A stretch of DNA of 64,000 nt from Ornithodoros turicata (lineage: Eukaryota > Arthropoda > Arachnida > Ixodida > Argasidae), in the NCBI RefSeq assembly GCF_037126465.1, contig NW_026999355.1, forward strand, positions 682,001 to 746,000, given 5' to 3'. The first letter of the stretch is position 1; each line of letters opens with the position of its first letter. Made by a program: the position numbers and the translations under genes. Positions 1-62,633 of this stretch are shown piece after piece. The notes beneath the pieces are model-generated. The model ran no database searches and had not been told where the DNA came from. It was given only the letters and a program-made list of their open reading frames with translations.

Positions 1-818
1 ATCACACAAAAGTCAAAACAGAAAAATACTGCATCTCTTGAACATGATGGGAATTGATGTTCTGAGGCTGGAACATATAGGAAGGACAAATACATACAAA
101 GCCCCAAGTGTTCCCTTTACGTGTAACATGACATATAATACAAAATGAAAAAACAATTTTCACTACTGAATAACGGTGCCAAGAGAACACAACACAACGT
201 CAAATTTCCAACTGTCTACTCCACAAGAAAAACCCATCCCAATTGTGTCTATGTTGATTAAATAATTTTGATGCTGGGTATCTAGAGACATCAGGAAGAT
301 GACCACAACTTATTGTTGTTAGCTGGATTGAACCCGGATAGTAAGAAACAGTGACCTAATGAATACTATGAGCTTTTAGAGCTTACTGCTTTTAAAACTG
401 ACCACGTTTTGTGTTCTCTCTCTGATTTTTAAACGTCTGTATATGCAGGTAATCTGCCTATTGCAAAGGAAATGTTACCAATTGCTTGTTCCCAGAATAC
501 TGAGTTGCAACTTTCAAAAACTGGGTATAGCTAGTACCTAGTAATTAGAACCTGTCTGAATGAAGTTCATGTGTGTTCACTAAACAGGGGTTTGAGTGTG
601 CTAGTTTCCTGCCTACACTTTGAAAATTTTATGCCTGCAATTAACATTTATTTCTACAGCCAGTAAGGCAATGTTTGGTAAAAAACTGCCCTATGTTTTC
701 TGACAACCAGGAGCAGGGGGTGCCATATAAACAATGGGAATATAGCTAAATGAGACAATGGGACAAAAAATGGGGGATCGTACAAAAGGAGAAACGGTAG
801 GTGCTTCCATTCTCTTAC
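1..818. other. CLN3 intron 12, partial
   Basis: This is non-coding sequence after the last visible CLN3 exon. Apart from the dispersed SINE-tail copy at 43-110 I see no gene, RNA or repeat here. Confidence 0.5.
43..110 (-). repeat. Dispersed SINE-tail repeat, copy 1
   Basis: It begins CATGATGGGAATTGATGTTC and closely matches 1971-2041 (opposite strand) and 21471-21540 (same strand) over about 70 bp. The plus-orientation copy at 1971-2041 follows a tRNA-like block, which suggests the shared piece is the 3' body of a SINE family. Confidence 0.55.
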
Positions 819-874
819 CATCTGTATTGCTCCCTGTGAGTCAGTTTTGTATTTTTAAATACTATTAACTCCAA
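819..874 (-). CDS. CLN3: CLN3 exon 12 (56 nt), last exon in window
   Basis: The acceptor is TTTTCCAG and the donor GTAAGA. It encodes LELIVFKNTKLTHREQYRW, equivalent to FELLFFWNTSLSHAQQYRW of human CLN3. The next exon (expected to continue with YQ-YQ-GVF-SRSS) is not present in 1-818, so it lies beyond the left edge. Confidence 0.88.
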
Positions 875-3800
875 CTGGAAAACATGGAAGAAGCATCATC
901 AGTAAGCAGAAGATATCAAAGATAGTCAATAATGACATCTACTAGGAATATCTTTCCCACTCACCAAGCCTTGGTTGATGAAATACTCTGCGAAGTACAC
1001 AATGCCCAGAGGGACCATGAAACGCAGAAGAGGCTGGAAGGAATGTAACAGAACAGGATAGAGTGATAAACCATGAACCTTAGGGTTGAATGCCTCCTTA
1101 CTTTATTACGATACTTTAGAATCCACACTTCTTACAGTTCATCGTATTGTCTGATAATCCACATACATAATCCACTTCCCAAGATATGCAAACGTGTTCT
1201 CCTGCAGTACAGTGCACTTGGTAACATGGCTGGCAAGATGGTGCATGGTGATGGTGCTTTGAAATACTTGGAGATTGAGTGTGTTAATTGCCCACCGTAC
1301 TTACAGGATATTGCTCTCGCTGACTGTTTTGGGTTTTTACACCCAAATGAGTATTTTAAAGGAAGAAAATTTTATGTCGACCTGGCAGTGATTGCAGCAG
1401 TGGAGAAGTATTTCAATGACAAGATATCACTTTTTTTTTTCTAAAGGTTAAAGGAGCTCCAGAAATGTTGTGCTGAGTGTCTTGAACTTCTAGAACAATA
1501 TGTCAAACAGACAAGGGTTTCGTGACTCTAGTCAGTGCTCTCCTTGATTTTGCCAATAACGTTTCAGTTGCATTTTGCCCATCTTGTGACAGTACAAGAG
1601 GGAACCTGAGAGACAGACACATTCGTGATAAAAGAAGAGGCTTAGTGCCCAAAAAGGAAGCAAATAGAAGAAGTCTTTTGTCTACAAGAGCCATGTTAAT
1701 GTAAAGAAACATGCGTACAATCTCCTAAAAGATTTTCCAGGCCCATTGTGCTCTCAGGCACAGAAAAGTGTGCTGCAAGTGCCTCTGTGATACCATCTAT
1801 AATAGATCTCCTGTGTGAGATATACATGACATGCCTGGGTAATGATGAAAGAAGAAAGTCACTGAAAGGGTTAGCCAGCTATAGGACTCAAACCCACATC
1901 ATCCGGATTTTTGAGTCCTACCAGCTGGCTAACCTTTTCAGTGACTTCCTTCTTTCATCATTAATTTCTTAGGCACTTGAGGCTTTGTATGTATTTGTCC
2001 CTTCTATGTGTTCCAGCCTCAGAACATCAATTACCATCATGCCGGGGTAGTCTGTAATCAACCAACATAAAGTATGCCAGCCAATGGACCACATGCAGCT
2101 ATATTAGCTTAGGCACAACCTGTGAACATTTCACAGCACTGGAAAAATAACATACCCTGACCAGCTTGACCTTGTCGAGAAACAGGATCGCATTCTCAGT
2201 GTTTCCCCTGCAAGCACTGCAGGGCAGCAGAGGGACGTCATCTGTGTCGTTTGGAGGTGCAGCAGAAGATGCCTCTCTAGGCTTCTTCGGGTGGACCAGT
2301 ACACACCAAAAACTGCAACAGGAAAAAATGCTGGAGATGCCTCAAATCCTGTAAGGAACTACTGTATAAGTAGGAAGTCCAGCGACCCAGTGAAGATACG
2401 TCGAAGCAAACGCCTCGGGTCTGGAGCCGCCAATATCTCAAACAGAGAACGTTCTTTTACTGTGCGGTAAAAGGAACAGTCTCTCTGTTAGAAATGCTAT
2501 TAGCAGCTCCAGACCTGGGGCTTTCACTTGAAATTACTGGAAAAGTAGGTAGTAATTTTCACAAATTTTGCAGTTGTCATTTTTCTGTAAATTCAAAGTC
2601 CCGTTATATATTGATAATGATGATATAAATTACTGAAAAACTGCAATTTGCAAAGAGTAATACTTCAAGAAAACTGAACGGACTCGCTGAGCAGTGGTTA
2701 TTGTGGCACATTTCTAGCGCACCTTGGCAACAAGGCACCTGCTTTTTCACATACTGCCAACTACATCCTTATTGAGCATGCATTGTTCTCACCAAACATG
2801 TACAGCATGTGTTGAATGAGGGCAACTTCTGAAATCAACAAAGAAAAAAAAAAGGAAAAGAAGACAGAGAGACTCTCAGTGGTCTACTCAAACGATTTGT
2901 CATCACAGGAGATCATCTGTGCAGAACAATCAGAGGTCTCTCCATATTCTGGCATATTCGGGGAAGGAGATGCAGAAGGAAAGCACAAATTTGTACACTC
3001 ATAAATTTTGAATGACACAACTCGTTCCTTTTCTGTCTGTGTCTATATAATGGCATCTTTCATTTCGTGCCGGGAAACTTTTGCACTTTAGTGTCCCTTT
3101 AAAGGTGCAGTCTGCCAGGAGCGACAGTGTACAATATTTCCACTGAATGGTGTCTTATTATCACTACACATTTCAATGTACATGTTTCTCGTGAAACCCA
3201 GCACAGCAAAAACAATAAATAAAATTTAAAAAATATATTTATAGATATGGAAAGATCTTTCAATGTTCCTCAGAATGAAAGATGCACTAGTCTTAACAGC
3301 AATATGAAAGGAAATGCTTCCACACATTGCATCACTCGTGATTTATAGATAACGAAATGATATATATATAACGAAATAAACTGTAATGTGCGCTTTTCCT
3401 CTCAAGAAGGCCGACAACGCGGAGAGGTCTCAGATTGGTCCCTTCAAACAATCTCCCTCGATGATTGGACAGATCGTTTGCAGAGACCAGTGAGAGCGCA
3501 CTCCGCATAATCAGCCTTCTTACGGAGGAGAGGGAGAAGGAAATCACAAGCTACAGGTTCTTTCGCTCGTGGATCACGAACAGCGCAATGGATGACTCCC
3601 GTCCTTTCGTCGTGGTGTGTGATATTGGTTCTGGTATTTTTTACACCTTAGCTGCAAAGATAACACTTGCACAGGGTGAGCATGTCAGACAGACGTCACT
3701 TACCCCTGGGTCATTCCAGGCCAAATCACCCAAAGGTCATGCTCGACCCCCCTCAGTTTTGCTTCCAAAAATTATCATGGACTCCTTATTACAGATAAAG

Positions 3801-6800
3801 ATATTTTCCCAAGTTTTACTTGGCAATGTTGAACCGTTGTCGATTTACGCGGGCTCAAAGTTTGTCAGAATCGCGAAAACCATGCTACGAAAAAAGTTAT
3901 CTACTGAGCAGGGTTTTGCGTCAAGGTGGACTTTAGTGACATAGAATGAAAGAGCGTGGCATTAGCATTCTGCCAATGTCAAGTTCTTCCCTCGTGTTTG
4001 ATTTTCGGTCAGCGAAACAGGGCTGCTTTTTGGCGCTATTTCTTACAACTTTGCGCCTTGCTAAGGGCACTTTTCGCACAAGCTGGAAGGGATAAATAAA
4101 TTCAGCGTGTTCTGTACCTTCCATACTTCAAAATCACATGCTTTAAAGGCCGACCACACAATACTTTTTGCCCCATTTAATCCCAAATGCTGTACTTTTA
4201 GTAAAGTTGGACGTTTTCAATGCCATTTTTGAAAATGAAGCGGTCTTCCGAGAACAATCCAAATAGATGGAGATGACAGATCAAACTCTATACTAAAGCA
4301 TATAAAAAAATTGAGAAGGTACTTTTTGATTAGGGCGAGAAAATATTTTTTATGTCCCACATGGTTACGCGAAGGCCGCATGAGACGGCTCCCTGTGAGG
4401 CGCGTGAACAGATCGCATGCCAAGGTTTCACAAGCCGCGTCCTGCGGCTGGATATGAGCAGGTCCTCTTTTTTGCCAGCCTTTTTGTTAATAAACTGTGT
4501 ATTTTTTATCGTTATCAGTGCATTGGTAAGTATTGTTAGTAAGTGTTTCTCAGAGTCTTTCATTCGTGGTGTTTTAAAGTGGTAGTCATGAGAAACGACA
4601 GCGATGCTTTCACACTCACAAGGAACATTATGAGCAAACCATACCATCCCTTCGAATGTTGCGTTTCTTATGATTATTAGCAACGCAGATCACGTTGGGA
4701 GCGGATGGCTTTTGCTGCGTTGTAGCGTCCAAAAACGCGCTTGTACATCCACGTAACCTTTAACACATGGCCTTGAAATCGGCTTAGAAGAGCTCATCCG
4801 CGGTTCATGCCCGGCTCTGCTGATTAGTTTATGATCATCTTTCTCATATGTGATGCGTGCCGGGTAACCAAAAAGGTTGTTATTGCTCCAAGTTTCTTGC
4901 TGAAGTTGTTGTGTTGAACAATGGCCGAAGTAGGAATGTCAGCAAATGCGCGCGTGCAAAATGAAGGACTGCGGTATGAAAGTGCATGGCACGCACGGAA
5001 ACTCCAGTCAGAGCAGCATTCAAGACCTATCTTTTTGCCGTACAGAGGAAATTGTAGTGGTCACTTCTAATGAGATACCCTACCAATGGTCGTCTTTTCT
5101 TTTTAACGTTTGAAAAGAAAATATGAAATAATAATGAAACCGTTGTGCATTCATTTACGTGGGTATCTTTTTGCTCTTACTTCAAGCTGTTAAAATCGTG
5201 AAAATAAAATATGTAGACTGTCTGACTTGCAAATTGTGACGAAGACGAAGGAACGTCTCGTCGGTAAAAATAAAAGGAAGACGAGAGCGAGGCTCTCTCT
5301 TCTTCAGCCTGATCTCGGCCTGGTCGCTTGTTGTTTCCTGTAACGTCCAGCCACGTTACAACTTGGCGCCCGAACTACGAGCCTTTGATGCACGGAAGAT
5401 GATCGCAGGCACCTCTGCTTCTCCGACCGCTTTCGCCCGTACGCCGTCATAACCAGCGCAGTTCCAACATGGCGGAACATTCCATAGTAGAACGTTCCAT
5501 GGCGGACTTCACTGAGATGGATGACGACAGCAAGATTTCAGCGTTCCGTTCTGCGATAGCTGAGACGGATGCCTTGAAGAAGCAAGTCTATGACTTGCAA
5601 GCACAGCTCTCTGCTGTTCAGGAATCGCTGGGACATTCGCATACCACGGACCCGCGCATCAAGGACGATACCCCATACCTTCAGGCTACACATGACTTGG
5701 TATGCAGTCTCCTTGCACCTGTCATTGCTCGTCTGAATCACCTAGAGATCAGGTCAGGTCAGTCGTCGAGCCTATCATCGTATGCTTCAGATACTTTAGA
5801 TGTCGAAACCGACACGAAACTCAAAAAGAAGAATAGGAGGAAGCCGAAGCCATTGCAACAGGCCACGTCACGTGAACATCTTGCAAGTGTTCCATCAGCA
5901 TCGATGAACGTGTCATCGGTGGCCGCCAATGCAGTGCCTTAACTTGGCAGCGACGTCCTTGGCTGGATCCACCAGACCGACTTCTGGTTTCGGACTTACA
6001 ACGTTCACCCAGATGTCGCCATTCCTCTGATCGTGTCAAAACTGCCACAAAAAGACTTCAGCTGGGTTCGGTACCACGTGAATGCCTAAAAAATTTCATC
6101 ATGGGATGACATGAAAGCAGCCTTTCGTAAGCACTACGGACTTGGTGACAAGTTTCACGCAAAACAGCTGATGTTATCCGCTGTTCAGAAGGCTGAAGAA
6201 AGCTGCACTGACTTTGCGTTTCAGAAGCTTGACCTTGTGGCCGATTGTGAGTACCCGACATCTGAAAAGGACAAGTGCGAAGTACTCATCGAATCCCTAC
6301 TTGCAAGTGCCAGGAAACACTTCTTCGATAAGGAATTTACTTCGCTGGACAAATTGTTGGAGTCATCCCTAAGGTACGACAGATTGCGTGCGTCGCACGA
6401 GTCAAAGAAAGAAGACAACCCTAAGGACAAGAAGGAATCTGTCTTCCACGTATCATCTCCCGGTCCACACAGTCCTCCACAACGGATTCGAAACCATTCG
6501 ACTGCGTTCATGAGCCCAAGACAAAAGCAGAACGTGTCCACCACGCCCGTGCAGTGGCCAGAGCTCAACACACGTCAGACCCGACGAGCATCGCAGTCCC
6601 CCAGGACAAATCACAACTCACTGCCTCATCGAGAGGTCCAACGTGTCTGCCTCAACTGCAAGGACACAAGGCACTTCGCTTCCCGTTGTCCGCTTCCCCT
6701 GTCCCAAGAATTTTTGGAGTGGCAGGAAAGATTTCTGGCGTCGTCACAGTCCCAGACTTCGGGAAACAAATCACTGATGCCTCCGATACCTGCACAGAGA

Positions 6801-9800
6801 CATCAGAAGTAAACCGCGTAAAATGCATCCCTGCAGGTAATTCGAAGGCCATCGAGATCAAATTGAACGGATGTCCACAACTAGCGCTCCTGGACTCTGG
6901 TTCATCGAGGTCTCTCATGAATGACAGCGTCGCCGCACTGTTGGAACTTTATATTGCACCGTCGGCCGTAAGACTCCACGGAGCCAACGGTCAACCTCTT
7001 GTTATACACGGCCAAACCAGCATGGAAGTGTCAGTCGATGGACAAACGTTCCAACATTCGTTCATCGTTGTCCCTCACCTAGAAGTAGACAAGGTTCTCC
7101 TGGGAAATGATTTCCTTGAGACATCACAAGCTGTCGTTGACTGGGGCAGGAACAGCTTCGAAGTAACAGCCACGACACCCACTGAACGGGTCCAGCTTTC
7201 GAAGCAAGTGGTTGTGCCCCCCCGCTCTCGCAAGGCAGTCAAGGTGAAAACCTTGCAACACAAACGTGACGTCCTGGTCACAGCCACTAAAATTTTTACC
7301 GAACGATATGGACTGGACGTGGAGCCCATGACGGTTGAACCACAAGCCTCCCTTTCGGTATTACTGATCAATCGATCGTTAGAACCTGTCTTGGTACCAG
7401 CTTACGTGACCGTTGCGCTCGCTGAAGAAGTGTTGGATATTGAGGATGTGCTCATGACAGACTCTGAAGTTGACCAAGTGTTACAGAGCTCAACGGACGA
7501 AGACTCGTCAACCAGTACGCCTCATTCCTATCCTTCACCGAACAAGACCGTCGTCATAGACGGTATATCTTTCAACGTTGGAGCTGATCTAAACAGCACG
7601 CAGCAAGCAACTGTGCGAGATTTCCTTTGCAAGCATCTTTCGTCTTTTGCAAGAACTTCTACTGACGTTGGATATTGTCGAGTTCAGACTCATGCAATTC
7701 CAACGCAGGACACAACACCCGTAGCGCAACGACCAAGACGACTGTCCGCGGCTCAGAGGGATCTCGTCAAAGCCATGATTAAGGATCTCATTGATGCTGG
7801 TTTAGTTCGACCGTCACGCAGCGCCTGGGCATCTCCATTAGTCCTTGTCAAGAAGAAAGATGGCACTACACGCATGTGTGTAGACTACCGCAAACTGAAT
7901 GCCGTCACACAAGACTGCGTGTATCCCTTTCCCCTCATCGAAGATGCTTTACAAGCCCTTACTGGCAGCAAGTACTTCTCCGTCATGGACCTCGCATCTG
8001 GATTTCACCAAATTCCGATGAAGACAGAAGACGTTGAGAAGACTGCCTTCGTAACGCCTTGGGGACTCTACGAATATTTGAGGATGCCCTTCGGGTTGAA
8101 AGGAGCACCATTCACCTGTCAACGAGCCGTCGACATAGTTATCGATGACGCGAAGTTTAACTACGCTCTTGTGTACATGGACGACTGCGTGGTCTACAGC
8201 GGAACCTTCGAGGAACACCTGGAGCATCTCGGTACAATTTTCCAACGATTTCAAGATGCGGACTTGAAGTTCAAGCCCACAAAATGCTTCTTTTTCTGCA
8301 GCCAAATTTCCTACCTGGGACATGTCATCACTAGACATGGTGTTGCCCCAGACCCCGGAAAGGTCGCAGCGGTACAACGGTTTCCGACGCCGAAAAACAT
8401 CAAAGAATTGCAATCATTTCTCGGGCTTACTGCATACTTCCGGAAGTTCATTCCAGGCTACAGTGTCCTCGCTGCGCCTTTACGTGAACTTATGAAGAAG
8501 GACATGGCTTTCACCTGGACGGACGCTCACTCTTCAGCATTCCTGGAACTTAAAGATGCTCTCTGCAGCCAGCCGACTCTCAAACTGTTCTCGGATGACC
8601 CATCCTTCGATATACAGGTCCACACCGATGCTTCCTCGCTAGGACTAGGTGCTGTGCTTGTGCAAGAGGATGAGGACAAAAACCTTCGCCCAGTGGTATA
8701 CTTGAGTCGTGCCCTTAAAGGTGCAGAAGTCAATTACGCATCGACAGAGTTGGAAGCGCTGGCTGTAAAGTGGTCTGTCGAACAGTTATGCCCGTATCTC
8801 ATCGGCAGGAAATTCCACGTCGTCACGGATCACCATGCCTTGTGCTGGCTCCTGAAGTATAAACAAGGCAACCAACGGTTACTACGATGGTCACTTTCAC
8901 TCCAGGAATTCGACTTCGACGTCATATAAGACTGGGCGCTTACACTATGCACCGGACTGTTTGTCCAGGACTCCACCGGAAAATGCAGGATCGAACGTAC
9001 TGCAAGTTGCAGACGGCGTTACATCATTTGAAGCCCTCTCCCAAGAGCAACAGACAGACCCCTTTTGCAGAGGCATTCTCGATCTACTACATGCACGTTG
9101 TGGTACCCGGAAGCAGCAACGAAGAGCCGTTAAGAAGTTCGTGGTACTCGATAGCGTCCTCTACAAAGCTCACAAAGGCCCCGCTCATCAGCGCTTTCTT
9201 ATCTGCTTGCCACGAACCAGAATTGACTACGTCCTTCGGGAATTCCACGGGGGGAAGTATGGTGCGCACATGGGAATCCGAAGGACTTATGAAGCTATCC
9301 GCACCAAGTACCATTGGCCTAAAATATTCGCCGATGTAAAGAAATTCGTCCAACACTGCGACCTGTGCCAAAAATACAAGATGTCACCGTTCTCTTCGGG
9401 TCTTCTACAGCCAATACCCGTCCATGCACCATTTCACACAGTGGGCCTGGATATCATAGGCCCGTTTCCATCTTCACGGCGTTACAAGTACGTGTTGTCG
9501 CCATAGACTACCTCACCAAGTTTGTAGAAGTGAAACCTGTGAGGAATATCGAAGCGAAAACAATCCAGCATTTTATCGAGAAGAGGCTTGTATTGAAGCA
9601 CGGCTGTCCGGCAGTGCTTATCACCGACCGTGGGACTCAAATGATGGCAAAGTCGACAGAGCTGTTCCTTTGACACCGCGGGATTAAGCACAGCCCGACG
9701 ACTGCGTATCATCCTGCAGCTAACGGACTGTGCGAGAGAGCCAACAAGACGATCAAACAAATGATGACCCTGATGACAGCGGAGGGAGAAAAATGGGTCG

Positions 9801-12800
9801 ACGTTCTTCCTTACGTGGTATTTTGTTACAATACTGGCTACCAGGATACCGTCAAACAGTCGCCCTTCTTCCTCGTCTACGGACGTGATCCAGTGCTCCC
9901 GATAGATGTCGTTTTTAACCGTCAGGAACTCGCCGAACTGAAGGATGCAGCAAATTATACAAGCCTGGTACACGAGCGACTAGCCTGCGCCCGGAAACTG
10001 GCGGCGGATAACATCAAACTAGCCCAGGAGAAACAAAAGCATTACTTCGACCACGGTCGCAAGGATATCGTCCTCGAAAAAGGCCAGCTGGTTCTCCTGA
10101 AGTCTCCACCTACAGGCATCAAAGGACCGAAGAAGTTCACAGGACCATTTCGTATCGTTGCACGTCTTTCTCCGGTGAACTACGAAATCGAGCCAGAAAA
10201 CGGTACCTGGAGCGACGTCGTACATGTGGAAAAGCTCAAGCCCTATTTGAAGCCAATTTCCTTGTACAGTTGAACATTGTGTGTCATCTGTAAATACTCA
10301 TTCTGCATGTTGTCACTATGTATATATTCATATTCTTCCAAAACCCGGGGATGTGACGAAGACGAAGGAACGTCTCGTCGGTAAAAATAAAAGGAAGACG
10401 AGAGCGAGACTCTCTCTTCTTCAGCCTGATCTCGGCCTGGTTGCTTGTTGTTTCCTGTAACAAATAAACTGTTTTTATCATTCCAGCCTGCTTGGGTGAT
10501 CATCATCAGCCAGCTGTTCAGTGTGGATAGATTAGCAAGCACCACATGAACGTCTCAGGCTAGTACGCGGTAGTAGCATAGGTGTGACTTAGTTGAATAT
10601 AATGTCTGTTCTGGTCCTCCATAACGGACAGGAAAACTTCACCACACGGAAAAACTTTATTCGCCGAACCAAGCCTCGCGACCCACCCGTGCGGCGTTCA
10701 GCGTAACTATGTGTAGAGTGGGTGGGATATAAAAAATATTTTATCGCCCTTATCAAAAAGTACCTTCTCAATTTTTTTATATGCTTTAGTATAGATATTG
10801 ATCTGTCATCTCCATCTATTTGGATTGTTCTCGGCCGACCGCTTCATTTTCAAAAATGGCGTTGAAAATGACCAACTTTACCAGAAGTACGGCATTTGGG
10901 ATTAAATGGGACAAAAAGTATTGTGGGGGGGGCCTTCAAAACATGTGATTTTGAAGTATGGAAGGTAGAGAACACGCTGAATTTATTTGTCCCATCCAGC
11001 TTGTGCGAAAAGTGCCCTTAGCAAGCTACAAAGTTGTAAGAAATAGCGCCAAGAAGAAGCCCTGTTTCGCTGGCCGAAAATGAAACACGAATGAAGAACT
11101 TGACATTGGCAGGATGTTAGGGCCACGCTCTTTCATTCTATGTCACTAAAGTTCACCTAGACTCAAAACCCTGCTCAGTAGGTAACTTTTTTCGTAGCAT
11201 GGTTTTCGCTATTCTGACAAACTTTGAACGTGCCTAAATCGACAACGGTTCAACATTGTCCAGTAAAACTCGGGAAAACACCTTTATTTGGAATAAGAAG
11301 TCCATGATAATTTTTGGAAGTAAAACTGAGGGGGGTCGAGCACAACCTTTGGGTGATTTGGTCTGGGATGACCCCCCAATTTATTAATTAGTCAATCAAT
11401 CAAAGTTTAGTTATTATTGAACTAGCTATTTTAGTTAAAAAATTAATTAATGGAAGGCCACCATAGTTAGTTCTACACCCAAATCTTGCTGACCTCTGCA
11501 ACGCAGAAAGCACTCCTAAACTTTTTATACGGTACAAGTAGAAACACTTGTGAGAGCTATTCTTCAATGAAAATAAAGTTTCATGAAGTGGCACCTCTAA
11601 GAACTCCATGGTGCAGGGTAAATGTATCATGAAATTAAGGTCCTGCAAAATATTCCTCAAACAATCCTCCCTCCAAATACGAGTTATTGAGATCACAAAA
11701 TTAATCACTTATACAGCAATCAAGGTGCTTCTTGCAAGTTTATCTGTGCTTAGGCTTCCAAACAGACACAGAAATGTCTTAAATTAACAAATGCTGCTGC
11801 CAATGTAATGCTGTTCTTTGGTTGAATGTAAATATGGCATCTTGTGAGTGACTTACCTAAACGCCAATACGGCAGGCACAAAGAGCATGACCTGTAATGT
11901 TGTCGCAGGTGTGAGTAAAGATGCCATGGAGGCATATGACAGGGCACCCAGGACACCTGCACCACCTTAAAAGGGCAACAGGTAGGGAAACTTAGTTTAT
12001 TAGGCACCACTACCAAATAGTCGAAAATTGCAAAATTTTATTTTCTAGTACTCCTATGTAGACTGTAGAGTAAGTTCCATAGCTCGTGGGATAGATAATT
12101 GCGTACTCCTATGACTTGTTGGTAAAATTAAATGTACAAGCAACATTTTCTCTAATTTTTCATCTTGTTTTTAAGGAGTGAACATTCAAAGAAGAGCACC
12201 ACCATGCACCACATCTACACAAGGTGAATGAGAACAAATGGATGATGTACAGGACCAAGGTCATGTGTCGTATACTAGGTGTGGGACACCACTAGTAGCG
12301 TCGTTTGATACTGTGAGTACGTTGATAGAAAATGGTTCGTGTTGAACATGGTTCTGTGACAAGCAAGAGAGGAGGAGGAAAGATGTGAGAAACTGTCACA
12401 AACCTGTTCCAGATGACCATGTGGATATCACATCTCTATCCGCCATGAAAAAACAAACAAACAGAAAGAAGCTTTCTTTATGTCAAGTGGAAACAGCTGT
12501 GTTTTGACACGACACAAAACAGCAGTGCATGTTAATGTTTTTTTAAATTTCTTGCGGCGTGCCAGACCTGCTGCACCATTCTGTTAGTAATAACGCAAGG
12601 ACATTGCAAGGGATAAGACGAGAACTAAAACAGTTTTCCAGATAATTCTGTTACTGGTGATGCAGGTCATGTATCTTTCTTTGCGTAGCCATGCCATTGA
12701 ACATGCAGATGCTAATGACACTAACTGAAGGTCTCAGGGACAGGAAATGTTGTGCCATACGAGAACAGTTTCACAAAAAGTGCATGTCCTTACAGGAAGC

Positions 12801-23530: not shown

Positions 23531-23550
23531 TATATATATATATATATATA
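23531..23550. repeat. (TA)n microsatellite, left border of array
   Basis: About ten TA repeats immediately before the first 287-bp unit. A matching tract lies after the last unit. Confidence 0.9.
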
Positions 23551-24698
23551 AAGAGGGGGGAAAAGCCATTAAAAAATAGGTTAAATGATGCTAGACGTGT
23601 TTGAAATTCAAACTTACAGTTAAGATGGCTTCTATGGCTGCACGTAGAGAAACAGATACTCATTGAACGATGCGACAGCACCAGAGGACACGTGTTTCGC
23701 CGTGTTTGCGGCTCATCGGCCCTGGGTAGCTGCGCTTCGTTCGGGATTGGCAAACCAGGGGTCACTCAGCAAGTGATATACACCTGGGAGGGTGACCGAG
23801 CACTCCTCAATGCCACAGTGCAAGCCAGTGAATTATAAAGAGGGGGGAAAAGCCATTAAAAAATAGGTTAAATGATGCTAGACGTGTTTGAAATTCAAAC
23901 TTACAGTTAAGATGGCTTCTATGGCTGCACGTAGAGAAACAGATACTCATTGAACGATGCGACAGCACCAGAGGACACGTGTTTCGCCGTGTTTGCGGCT
24001 CATCGGCCCTGGGTAGCTGCGCTTCGTTCGGGATTGGCAAACCAGGGGTCACTCAGCAAGTGATATACACCTGGGAGGGTGACCGAGCACTCCTCAATGC
24101 CACAGTGCAAGCCAGTGAATTATAAAGAGGGGGGGAAAGCCATTAAAAAATAGGTTAAATGATGCTAGACGTGTTTGAAATTCAAACTTACAGTTAAGAT
24201 GGCTTCTATGGCTGCACGTAGAGAAACAGATACTCATTGAACGATGCGACAGCACCAGAGGACACGTGTTTCGCCGTGTTTGCGGCTCATCGGCCCTGGG
24301 TAGCTGCGCTTCGTTCGGGATTGGCAAACCAGGGGTCACTCAGCAAGTGATATACACCTGGGAGGGTGACCGAGCACTCCTCAATGCCACAGTGCAAGCC
24401 AGTGAATTATAAAGAGGGGGGAAAAGCCATTAAAAAATAGGTTAAATGATGCTAGACGTGTTTGAAATTCAAACTTACAGTTAAGATGGCTTCTATGGCT
24501 GCACGTAGAGAAACAGATACTCATTGAACGATGCGACAGCACCAGAGGACACGTGTTTCGCCGTGTTTGCGGCTCATCGGCCCTGGGTAGCTGCGCTTCG
24601 TTCGGGATTGGCAAACCAGGGGTCACTCAGCAAGTGATATACACCTGGGAGGGTGACCGAGCACTCCTCAATGCCACAGTGCAAGCCATATGAATTAT
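23551..24698 (-). repeat. 287-bp hammerhead array, four units, minus orientation
   Basis: Four tandem units of exactly 287 bp, nearly identical to each other, are read from the minus strand. Each holds a hammerhead-like motif (minus strand, 23681-23725, 23968-24012, 24255-24299, 24542-24586). The array is 4.0 units long and meets the opposite array head to head near 24698. The size, tandem repetition and one ribozyme per unit match the retrozyme plan: transcription through the array and self-cleavage would release 287-nt RNAs. The 81-codon open frame in each unit is a by-product of repeat identity. Confidence 0.85.
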
Positions 24699-26130
24699 CT
24701 GTTTCTCTACGTGCAGCCATAGAAGCCATCTTAACTGTAAGTTTGAATTTCAAACACGTCTAGCATCATTTAACCTATTTTTTAATGGCTTTTTCCCCCT
24801 CTTTATAATTCACTGGCTTGCACTGTGGCATTGAGGAGTGCTCGGTCACCCTCCCAGGTGTATATCACTTGCTGAGTGACCCCTGGTTTGCCAATCCCGA
24901 ACGAAGCGCAGCTACCCAGGGCCGATGAGCCGCAAACACGGCGAAACACGTGTCCTCTGGTGCTGTCGCATCGTTCAATGAGTATCTGTTTCTCTACGTG
25001 CAGCCATAGAAGCCATCTTAACTGTAAGTTTGAATTTCAAACACGTCTAGCATCATTTAACCTATTTTTTAATGGCTTTTCCCCCCTCTTTATAATTCAC
25101 TGGCTTGCACTGTGGCATTGAGGAGTGCTCGGTCACCCTCCCAGGTGTATATCACTTGCTGAGTGACCCCTGGTTTGCCAATCCCGAACGAAGCGCAGCT
25201 ACCCAGGGCCGATGAGCCGCAAACACGGCGAAACACGTGTCCTCTGGTGCTGTCGCATCGTTCAATGAGTATCTGTTTCTCTACGTGCAGCCATAGAAGC
25301 CATCTTAACTGTAAGTTTGAATTTCAAACACGTCTAGCATCATTTAACCTATTTTTTAATGGCTTTTCCCCCCTCTTTATAATTCACTGGCTTGCACTGT
25401 GGCATTGAGGAGTGCTCGGTCACCCTCCCAGGTGTATATCACTTGCTGAGTGACCCCTGGTTTGCCAATCCCGAACGAAGCGCAGCTACCCAGGGCCGAT
25501 GAGCCGCAAACACGGCGAAACACGTGTCCTCTGGTGCTGTCGCATCGTTCAATGAGTATCTGTTTCTCTACGTGCAGCCATAGAAGCCATCTTAACTGTA
25601 AGTTTGAATTTCAAACACGTCTAGCATCATTTAACCTATTTTTTAATGGCTTTTCCCCCCTCTTTATAATTCACTGGCTTGCACTGTGGCATTGAGGAGT
25701 GCTCGGTCACCCTCCCAGGTGTATATCACTTGCTGAGTGACCCCTGGTTTGCCAATCCCGAACGAAGCGCAGCTACCCAGGGCCGATGAGCCGCAAACAC
25801 GGCGAAACACGTGTCCTCTGGTGCTGTCGCATCGTTCAATGAGTATCTGTTTCTCTACGTGCAGCCATAGAAGCCATCTTAACTGTAAGTTTGAATTTCA
25901 AACACGTCTAGCATCATTTAACCTATTTTTTAATGGCTTTTCCCCCCTCTTTATAATTCACTGGCTTGCACTGTGGCATTGAGGAGTGCTCGGTCACCCT
26001 CCCAGGTGTATATCACTTGCTGAGTGACCCCTGGTTTGCCAATCCCGAACGAAGCGCAGCTACCCAGGGCCGATGAGCCGCAAACACGGCGAAACACGTG
26101 TCCTCTGGTGCTGTCGCATCGTTCAATGAG
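24699..26130 (+). repeat. 287-bp hammerhead array, five units, plus orientation
   Basis: Five units (4.99 periods) of the same 287-bp repeat, read from the plus strand. Hammerhead motifs are at 24916-24960, 25203-25247, 25490-25534, 25777-25821 and 26064-26108. The array starts at a different phase of the unit (TCTGTTTCTCTACGTG) than the minus array ends, so the junction is not a simple mirror point. It ends in a second (TA)n tract at about 26131-26158. Confidence 0.85.
24916..24960 (+). ncRNA. Type I hammerhead ribozyme motif (representative of nine)
   Basis: The motif reads in order: stem I 5' strand CCAGGG; core CCGATGA; stem II GCCG, loop CAAACA, CGGC; core GAAA; minimal palindromic stem III around ACGT; cleavage triplet GTC (cut after 24954); stem I 3' strand CTCTGG. 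Stem I gives six pairs including one G-U, and stem II four. The only departure from consensus is C for U at core position 4 (CCGANGA instead of CUGANGA), shared by all nine copies. A very short stem III is typical of ribozymes that act as dimers in Penelope-like elements and retrozymes. Activity is not shown. Confidence 0.75.
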
Positions 26131-26194
26131 TATCTATATATATATATATATATATATCTTGAAAAGTTGGAGTTGGATCGGACGGCTACGTAAT

Positions 26195-26534
26195 TATAGT
26201 TGAAATAAATGGGAGACAGAAGACAAAAGTAGGGGAAGTAACAAAAAAAGGGTTTATTAAAACTTAAAAATCATGAAAGTTAGGGAGAATGTCTACGTTA
26301 CGGCGGAAGCTCCGCCTTCTTCGGGACAAAAGAGCTAAATGTGGCCACGAGGGGCTTTCTCAAGCCCCTTATCAGCCTCGTGGCCACATTTAGCTCTTTT
26401 GTCCCGAAGAAGGCGGAGCTTCCGCCGTAACGTAGACATTCTCCCTAACTTTCATGATTTTTAAGTTTTAATAAACCCTTTTTTTGTTACTTCCCCTACT
26501 TTTGTCTTCTGTCTCCCATTTATTTCAACTATAT
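26195..26534. repeat. Long palindrome with hammerhead-like motif in each arm
   Basis: Two inverted arms of about 155 bp with near-perfect complementarity flank a short spacer (about 26353-26375) that has its own GGGGCTT/AAGCCCC hairpin. Each arm contains a motif at 26290-26328 (minus) and 26400-26438 (plus): TGTC, CCGAAGA, hairpin GGCGG-AGCTT-CCGCC, GTAAC, GTA, GACA. It parses as a type I hammerhead with a 4-bp stem I, but with two core changes (C at position 4, U at position 13). It is bounded by (TA)n tracts like the adjacent array. Confidence 0.7.
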
Positions 26535-26559
26535 ATATATATATATATATGTTTCTCTT

Positions 26560-55149: not shown

Positions 55150-55970
55150 CAGACTTGTACGTATCTTGAGTACGTACTCAAAATACAGTATTTTAAATAC
55201 TTTTTCCGGTATTTTGGTACTCAATACTTTTTTGCGACAAGTATTTTTAATGTATTTAAAATACTTTTTTCGGTAAAATACTTTATTCGGCTACTCAGTA
55301 CTCAAAATACTTTCCTTCCTCGTCAAGCCATATCCAGCACGCTTCCCGCCGTGCCGAGATTTTCAGCTCACTGGGATTTAACCCCATTTTTCTTCGTTTT
55401 CTTTTTTTCGGGAATTCGCGAATCTGTCATTTTTCCTCTTGTACAATAGGCTGGTCCCAAGCCTGGCCTTGCTTCTCAATAGCCAGCTTCGTCAGAAAAC
55501 CGTTCCTATTCATATTGCCAGGTGAATCACAAGGGGATTAGGTACAAGATAATCCCGGTATTTATTTCCTTGGTCATCAAAGCAATAAACACGTGTCAGA
55601 GGTTGAAAGACCCGAACCGACATACAGGAGGGATTACGAAGTTTTGGGTCAGAACATATCAACAAAGTTTACTTGGGTTCACCAAAGTTCACCAAACATT
55701 ACTTGACACCAAGACGTTGCAAATGAAAGATATGCATGGCTGATGAAGTTTATTCCTTTCATTTGTAAGGCCACGTTCAGAATATGCGTTTCACTTACTG
55801 CTAATACTAAAGTACTTTAAATAGTATCTTAAATACTTCTTAGAGTATTTAGTACTCTACTCAAATTACTTTAAGTTTTGAGTATTTTGTACTCTATTTT
55901 AAATACTGTTTCCGTAGAGTATTTAGTATCGTATTTTAAATACTTTTGCGCAGTATTTTGTACAAGTCTG
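55150..55970. mobile_element. Non-autonomous hAT element (821 bp)
   Basis: Ends CAGACTTGTACGTATCTTGA and the complement ending TACAAGTCTG, with a perfect 8-bp duplication GTCCTATG (55142-55149 and 55971-55978). Subterminal regions are packed with AAAATACTTT/GTATTTTAAATAC motifs. In intron 2 of the transporter gene. Confidence 0.92.
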
Positions 55971-61813: not shown

Positions 61814-62633
61814 CAGACTTGTACGTATCTTGAGTACGTACTCAAAATACAGTATTTTAAATACTTTTTCCGGTATTTTGGTACTCAATACTTTTTGCGA
61901 CAAGTATTTTTAATGTATTTAAAATACTTTTTTCGGTAAAATACTTTATTCGGCTACTCAGTACTCAAAATACTTTCCTTCCTCGTCAAGCCATATCCAG
62001 CACGCTTCCCGCCGTGCCGAGATTTTCAGCTCACTGGGATTTAACCCCATTTTTCTTCGTTTTCTTTTTTTCGGGAATTCGCGAATCTGTCATTTTTCCT
62101 CTTGTACAATAGGCTGGTCCCAAGCCTGGCCTTGCTTCTCAATAGCCAGCTTCGTCAGAAAACCGTTCCTATTCATATTGCCAGGTGAATCACAAGGGGA
62201 TTAGGTACAAGATAATCCCGGTATTTATTTCCTTGGTCATCAAAGCAATAAACACGTGTCAGAGGTTGAAAGACCCGAACCGACATACAGGAGGGATTAC
62301 GAAGTTTTGGGTCAGAACATATCAACAAAGTTTACTTGGGTTCACCAAAGTTCACCAAACATTACTTGACACCAAGACGTTGCAAATGAAAGATATGCAT
62401 GGCTGATGAAGTTTATTCCTTTCATTTGTAAGGCCACGTTCAGAATATGCGTTTCACTTACTGCTAATACTAAAGTACTTTAAATAGTATCTTAAATACT
62501 TCTTAGAGTATTTAGTACTCTACTCAAATTACTTTAAGTTTTGAGTATTTTGTACTCTATTTTAAATACTGTTTCCGTAGAGTATTTAGTATCGTATTTT
62601 AAATACTTTTGCGCAGTATTTTGTACAAGTCTG
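61814..62633. mobile_element. Second copy of the 55150-55970 hAT element
   Basis: Same ends and the same GTCCTATG duplication (61806-61813, 62634-62641), one base shorter in a T-run. Confidence 0.9.

Follow-up and report, generated by a model that had tools for sequence, protein, structure and literature searches.

The window, a 64,000-nt stretch of the genome of the soft tick Ornithodoros turicata (Argasidae) on contig C73, contains a tandem array in which each unit carries a hammerhead motif, and this raises the questions of what kind of element the array represents and how it came to be inserted there. A tandem-repeat scan placed the repeat at 23547-26135, with a period of 287 nt and 99% matches. 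The nine 287-bp units reported in a preliminary description held up in period and count, but not as a single array. They form two inverted arrays, head to head, with ~4 laps on the minus strand and 5 laps on the plus strand. This inversion, which is missing from the preliminary description, is the most informative feature of the locus.

A hammerhead had been proposed for every unit, and a covariance-model check on all nine agreed: Hammerhead_1 (RF00163) was matched in 9/9 units at 35.5 bits each (gathering score 34, E 3.4e-05). The type I motifs are located on the minus strand at 23681..23725, 23968-24012, 24255-24299 and 24542-24586, and on the plus strand at 24916..24960, 25203-25247, 25490-25534, 25777-25821 and 26064-26108. 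The stems named in the preliminary description, the GAAA, the palindromic stem III and the GTC triplet are all present in the motif, and cleavage after 24954 was recovered from the sequence as the predicted position for the unit at 24916..24960. Stem I contains the named pairs but is longer than the six given for it, as positions 1-22 pair with 232-252 in the predicted circle fold. The core reads CCGATGA, that is, with a C at position U4, and this C was invariant across 26 locus consensuses. The usual core consensus is CUGANGA, and a C at U4 may weaken cleavage, which we count against the reading preferred below.

The 287-nt unit has a GC content of 48.8%, and its longest stop-to-stop frames in the circle are 81 aa in the sense and 77 aa in the antisense direction. 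The search of 1.07 Gb of genome returned at least 186 matches to the unit, the window's own included (best 40 of 514 candidates scored), and the hammerhead repeat in the window is therefore not a chance occurrence. Arrays continue across the predicted cut site and have their ends at other positions. In a circular fold, the unit had a predicted energy of -82.7 kcal/mol, compared to -66.2 (sd 4.4) for shuffled sequences (z -3.74). The type I hammerhead, the lack of a long frame, the multiple copies, the read-through arrays and the self-paired predicted fold support the earlier retrozyme call at the level of sequence and modelled structure, and the 287-nt element is very probably a retrozyme. These properties are shared with the metazoan non-LTR retrozymes in the available text of PMC7229834, which have one type I hammerhead per tandem unit of 150-450 bp, a GC content below 50%, no long frame, many copies and a highly self-paired predicted circle.

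The two arms of the array were delimited by phase, defined as the position counted from the predicted hammerhead cut. The left arm (23547..24698, minus strand) comprises 4.01 laps, with its 3' end at phase 140, within a site designated S2, and its 5' end at phase 138. The right arm (24696..26135, plus strand) comprises 5.02 laps, with its 3' end at phase 33, within a second site designated S1, and its 5' end at phase 29. The arms meet at a junction (24688..24698) that was read directly; it has a 3-nt overlap (TAT) and a G-to-TA change relative to the unit immediately to its left. Both 3' ends pass directly into (TA)n, on the left into a tract at 23531..23550 and on the right into a tract at 26135..26156 that separates the right arm from a second, Penelope-like twin. 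Metazoan retrozymes have target-site duplications of more than 4 bp when these are present; here (TA)n on both sides masks any. Neither 3' end in the window lies at the predicted cut site, and the template thus passed through a ligated or uncut site.

The end census covered the window and 27 loci picked by unit similarity (L009-L035), and a wider census added loci found by end motifs (L049-L051, L056-L069). Arms shorter than 24 nt were dropped from the end census, as were BLAST pieces below a score of 26 or 85% identity from the twin count. The 3' ends fell into two clusters beside (TA)n, S1 at phase 31-33 and S2 at phase 138-140, and the 5' ends were scattered. Across 47 arms, 24 3' ends fell in the S1 interval (25-46), 20 in the S2 interval (112-146) and 3 elsewhere, with both intervals defined after the ends had been seen; exact phases of 31, 33 or 138-140 were found for 38/47 arms in the window and the 27 similarity loci. 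A (TA)4 or longer run was located within 34 nt at 40 of the 44 S1/S2 ends, compared to a background of 0.27% in the window, and the remaining 4 had shorter TA runs. Both sites overlap with TA, so each is uncertain by a few nucleotides. The phases of the 5' ends appeared uniform in the window and similarity loci (KS p 0.63) and were less uniform once the end-motif loci were included (KS p 0.013). Exact 26-base end motifs occurred genome-wide 204 times for S1 and 379 times for S2, with 0 reversed.

The window twin has one end of each type, and this proved to be the rule. Both ends were read in 35 head-to-head twins, with 4 further twins cut by a locus end and uncounted; 32 were S1/S2, 2 were S2/S2 and 1 was irregular. 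The mixed twins were balanced in order, with 15 S1-left/S2-right, 15 S2-left/S1-right and 2 with shorter TA. The irregular twin, L011, had one S1 end and another at phase 284 without TA. Among the 34 twins whose ends both fell at S1 or S2, 32 were thus mixed (binomial p 3.5e-8 under free and equal choice by each arm), as were 16 of 17 twins of the similarity-chosen set alone, in which L011 was the exception. The target by itself cannot impose this pairing rule, because (TA)n is identical on both strands; its source should be sought in the RNA or the enzyme. The 2 S2/S2 twins and the irregular end of L011 weigh against the Penelope-type insertion that is proposed below.

In the end lists for contig C1, minus/plus neighbours no more than 10 kb apart comprised 17 mixed and 4 same-type pairs, against a random expectation of 0.28; 12 of the 17 mixed neighbours were read at sequence level. 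The same-type pairs were also read. L051 resolved into two separate S1/S2 twins flanking a twin of another hammerhead family (the 233-nt family), L057 into an S1/S2 twin plus a lone arm, and L058 into an S1/S2 twin whose S1 end had been missed by the pattern (the listed partner at 85.516 Mb lies outside the reading). L056 was a true S2/S2 twin. A second S2/S2 twin, the middle twin of L058, has a recombinant appearance.

Both end sites lie beside one predicted RNA helix. In the circle fold, positions 40-52 pair with 147-161, with S1 located 6 nt 5' of one strand of this helix and S2 6 nt 5' of the other. Positions 26-33 are also paired in the circle fold (p 0.36-0.98); the prediction therefore does not leave S1 free, and this weighs against the preferred reading. 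Site variation was scored over the 26 locus consensuses. Variable sites made up 6/106 positions in the hammerhead, the stem I extension and the start helix, compared to 27/152 elsewhere (Fisher p 0.004). The commonest change within the hammerhead was at position 259, which we take to be N7 of the core, a position free to vary in the consensus. In the start helix 1 of 28 sites varied, too few for a covariation test. Matches of the inverted repeats to miRNA families were below gathering scores and reflect long hairpins.

The second head-to-head twin in the window (26154-26533) shares a TA tract with the retrozyme array. Its left arm (26154..26352, minus strand), part of a pseudo-LTR, has its 3' end at a site designated S_B and carries a tail, and its right arm (26357..26533, plus strand) has its 3' end at a site designated S_A and is without a tail; a (TA)n tract at 26530..26549 forms the outer right flank. 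For this sequence 48 matches were listed (best 40 of 1088 candidates scored). Of these, 36 make up 18 pairs of minus/plus neighbours no more than 6.3 kb apart, and a hand count found no plus/minus pair among the matches listed. At L048, the window fragment corresponds to the pseudo-LTR of an element with a 919-aa frame for a reverse transcriptase (RT) and a GIY-YIG-like domain, and two same-strand pseudo-LTR copies lie 3,868 bp apart. The frame matched RVT_1 at 43 bits (cut-off 29.6) and GIY-YIG at 22.4 bits, just under the Pfam cut-off of 22.6, a shortfall that counts against the reading preferred below; its protein has homologues in Ixodes, amphioxus and others, some with both domains (e.g. 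P0015). The minus strand of L048 also contains a 282-aa GDSL-like hydrolase frame (PF13472, 43.5 bits) at 3245-4093, upstream of and in frame with the RT/GIY-YIG frame (485-3244), with one stop codon between them.

Two end sites recur among the Penelope-like copies, S_A and a site 37 nt beyond it, S_B. One S_A and one S_B end were found in 7/7 Penelope-like twins read (window, L011, L016, L052-L055), with one end in L016 lying 7 nt short of S_B, and these twins are flanked by (TA)n. A predicted helix is again present, with pair probabilities of 0.96-1.00, and S_A lies 5 nt and S_B 8-12 nt 5' of its strands. Retrozyme arrays abut the Penelope-like element in the window, L016 and L028, and L011 contains both. 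Rfam hammerhead searches of the Penelope-like copy tested gave no match up to E 1 and 0.5, a result that counts against the preferred reading; reduced variants may escape the model, and the hammerheads of Penelope-like pseudo-LTRs are reduced variants in the published accounts available.

The arrays also record how far copying proceeds. The shortest arms cover part of a single lap and the longest exceed 18 laps. Each window arm has one single-lap substitution, the junction region aside, and in the window the laps diverged from each other by 0.0010, the two arms by 0.0012 and the locus from its nearest counterpart by 0.0307. Among the 12 twins in which both arms contain full laps, sister arms were closer to one another than their locus was to any other in only 8, which counts against the preferred reading; this comparison leaves out L035, where there are two insertions. 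A sister arm was closer than the median other arm in 59/62 comparisons. In a stricter test the sister arm was at least as close as the closest arm elsewhere in just 18 of 62 comparisons, an outcome due to short arms over conserved stretches, which tie near zero. The closeness of sister arms is clear in the window and a tendency across loci. Stopping of the RT at its own primer was considered as a cause of whole-lap arrays and rejected, as only 9/48 arms longer than 0.9 lap came within 0.03 lap of a whole number of laps (p 0.002), a mild excess for which microhomology at the TA-bearing sites could account. Higher-order patterns of 4 or 9 laps were found in the long arrays L013, L014 and L032. 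Multimeric RNA circles were rejected as their source: in L014 the 4-lap pattern is present in one arm and absent from the other, which makes later unequal exchange likelier. In young loci (among them the window, L024, L025 and L027) variants were confined to single laps.

We consider it probable that the element is a metazoan-type retrozyme whose RNA, itself probably circular, was inserted by Penelope-type machinery copying from both target strands. Transcripts would self-cleave at the hammerhead and ligate into 287-nt circles, and a Penelope-like RT/GIY-YIG protein would take the retrozyme RNA in trans and nick both (TA)n strands. Reverse transcription would then be primed by one TA end at S1 and by the other at S2, each site lying next to a different strand of the predicted helix; the end footprints behind this step were observed, and from them we infer a simultaneous start on the same RNA. 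Each RT would complete anything from part of a lap to more than 18 laps, and the two cDNAs would be joined at scattered 5' points, as at the TAT overlap in the window, to give head-to-head arrays with (TA)n outside; these last two steps are seen as products. The preliminary description had stated that retrozymes move with help from other retroelements. Twin form, two-site ends and TA give that claim structural support and point to Penelope-like elements. A more specific version, which we put forward tentatively and give slightly less than an even chance, is that one RNA circle is copied simultaneously at two starts, each beside its own strand of the single helix, by a two-fold symmetric dimer of the Penelope-type RT on palindromic (TA)n. 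Each protomer would nick one strand and start one rolling cDNA, and the retrozyme helix would mimic the Penelope start helix.

One alternative concerns the circle. The same Penelope-type insertion could have used a linear multimeric transcript of an older array: near-identity of laps would equally be expected had they been copied from a single young array, the circle step is an inferred one, and the U4C core might leave multimers uncut. Arms exceeding 18 laps, and window arms of 4.01 and 5.02 laps with just one single-lap substitution each, argue against a linear template, which we regard as unlikely though deserving of serious consideration. The enzyme could also have been of LINE type, with ordinary twin priming in which the second strand primes on the same RNA. 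Head-to-head inverted products are known from LINE-1 twin priming, and the assignment of the enzyme rests on footprints; however, both 3' ends lie at two fixed internal sites that abut (TA)n instead of A-tails, and a Penelope-like element of the same genome, in the same tract, has a matching two-site twin signature. We consider a LINE-type route improbable.

Explanations at the DNA level were weighed against the same ends. If the locus were satellite DNA, a hammerhead tandem repeat would have been grown and inverted by unequal exchange, breakage and hairpin repair, with no reverse transcription at each locus. The 4- and 9-lap patterns of the long, old arrays fit unequal exchange, and the middle twin of L058 resembles a recombination product. 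Yet dispersed copies have the same two 3' end sites and (TA)n ends, with S1/S2 in 32/35 twins, an inversion of DNA would not select one S1 and one S2 end, and the young loci carry single-lap variants only, so that a satellite origin is decidedly improbable. Mirror artefacts of sequencing or assembly are scarcely credible as the source of the head-to-head arrays. Palindromic chimeras are a known class of artefact, but a mirror repeats one end, whereas 32 of the 35 twins here have two unlike ends, and the flanks that the twins join are different.

Hammerhead families of 233 nt and ~236 nt are also present in the genome. By eye, the 233-family twin of L051 and a twin of the other family at L049 each lie in a TA tract and have both types of end; the left end at L049 is altered. 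Structure prediction for the 233-nt unit does not give the S1/S2 helix as its optimum, which weighs against the preferred reading. A long run of 233-bp hammerhead units spans C3:106824423-106837050 (L036-L041), and its right end does not abut TA. Hammerhead-like matches ~236 nt apart at L030 2045-4981 (HH9 model, below gathering) represent a further retrozyme-like family. Serial insertions of several hammerhead families and of twins, next to one another in TA tracts, were observed at L051 1-1401, L049 1540-1990, L056, L057 and L059, as if each insertion left TA on both sides for the next one.

Elsewhere in the window, gag, protease/RT and integrase-like frames of a Gypsy-like LTR element were recognized by eye at 5403-10273. 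The coding exon at 50776-51885 matches Ornithodoros turicata LOC135373751 with 100% identity across 93% of the exon, which confirms the tick host of the preliminary description. Two tandem-repeat arrays are shared at equal spacing by 55257-55963 and 61920-62626, which probably reflects duplication of a segment of ~700 bp or more.

LINE-1 twin priming resembles the retrozyme twins in that its inverted products are primed by both target strands. It uses one fixed start at the A-tail and one variable internal start, unlike the two fixed internal sites and many laps of the retrozyme. With the GIY-YIG Penelope-like elements the tick element shares head-to-head inverted copies, an AT-rich target and two internal start sites, going by the available parts of PMC3846280 and PMC11167929. 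The pseudo-LTRs of Penelope-like elements are tandem or inverted with an optional tail of 30-40 bp on one of them, and the inverted form with a tail on one of the two is described in what is accessible of the same two papers. The purified Penelope-like protein cuts and extends both strands, uses AT-rich targets and starts at two adjacent internal RNA sites, according to the accessible portion of PMC11167929. In this anole protein study, again as far as its available text goes, the RNA start is not homologous to the cut DNA, whereas the retrozyme S1 and S2 sites contain TAT/TATA beside (TA)n. The retrozyme also differs from Penelope-like elements in encoding no protein, in being far smaller and in being repeated for many laps. 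In the available text of the rotifer paper (PMC3846280), inversion of the pseudo-LTR was explained by self-priming on antisense RNA, and the rotifer Penelope families gave no sign of cross-mobilisation, which counts against a helper role.

Plant LTR retrozymes (PMC4918200, via the available text of PMC7229834 and PMC7761336) are likewise non-autonomous hammerhead elements, and the plant ones have circular RNA. They differ in their LTRs, PBS, PPT, type III hammerheads, 4-bp target duplications and Gypsy-type helper, as given in the parts available of PMC7229834 and PMC7761336. For metazoan retrozymes, the accessible Discussion of PMC7229834 names Penelope-like elements as a strong helper candidate, since the two share type I hammerheads and tandem copies and are found together in the animals studied there. 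Twins, two fixed 3' start sites, a (TA)n target and a start helix are not described in the available text of that paper, nor are ticks mentioned there among the animals; circular RNA was shown there, whereas the tick element is known here from DNA sequence alone. Retrozymes and a suspected link to Penelope-like elements were therefore already known. Full-text searches, judged on titles and the starts of abstracts of the papers listed and covering few subscription papers, found no report of tick retrozymes or of head-to-head two-site retrozyme twins.

The tick insertions carry a Penelope-like signature, with both target strands, two fixed internal starts and a TA target, and the suspected helper and its parasite each show a similarly flanked predicted RNA helix. 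The suspected Penelope helper is now tied to named, testable sites, and the arrays provide many natural records of reverse transcription over many laps. If the proposal of a shared start helix is correct, mimicry of that helix would be how a tiny RNA captures the Penelope machinery.
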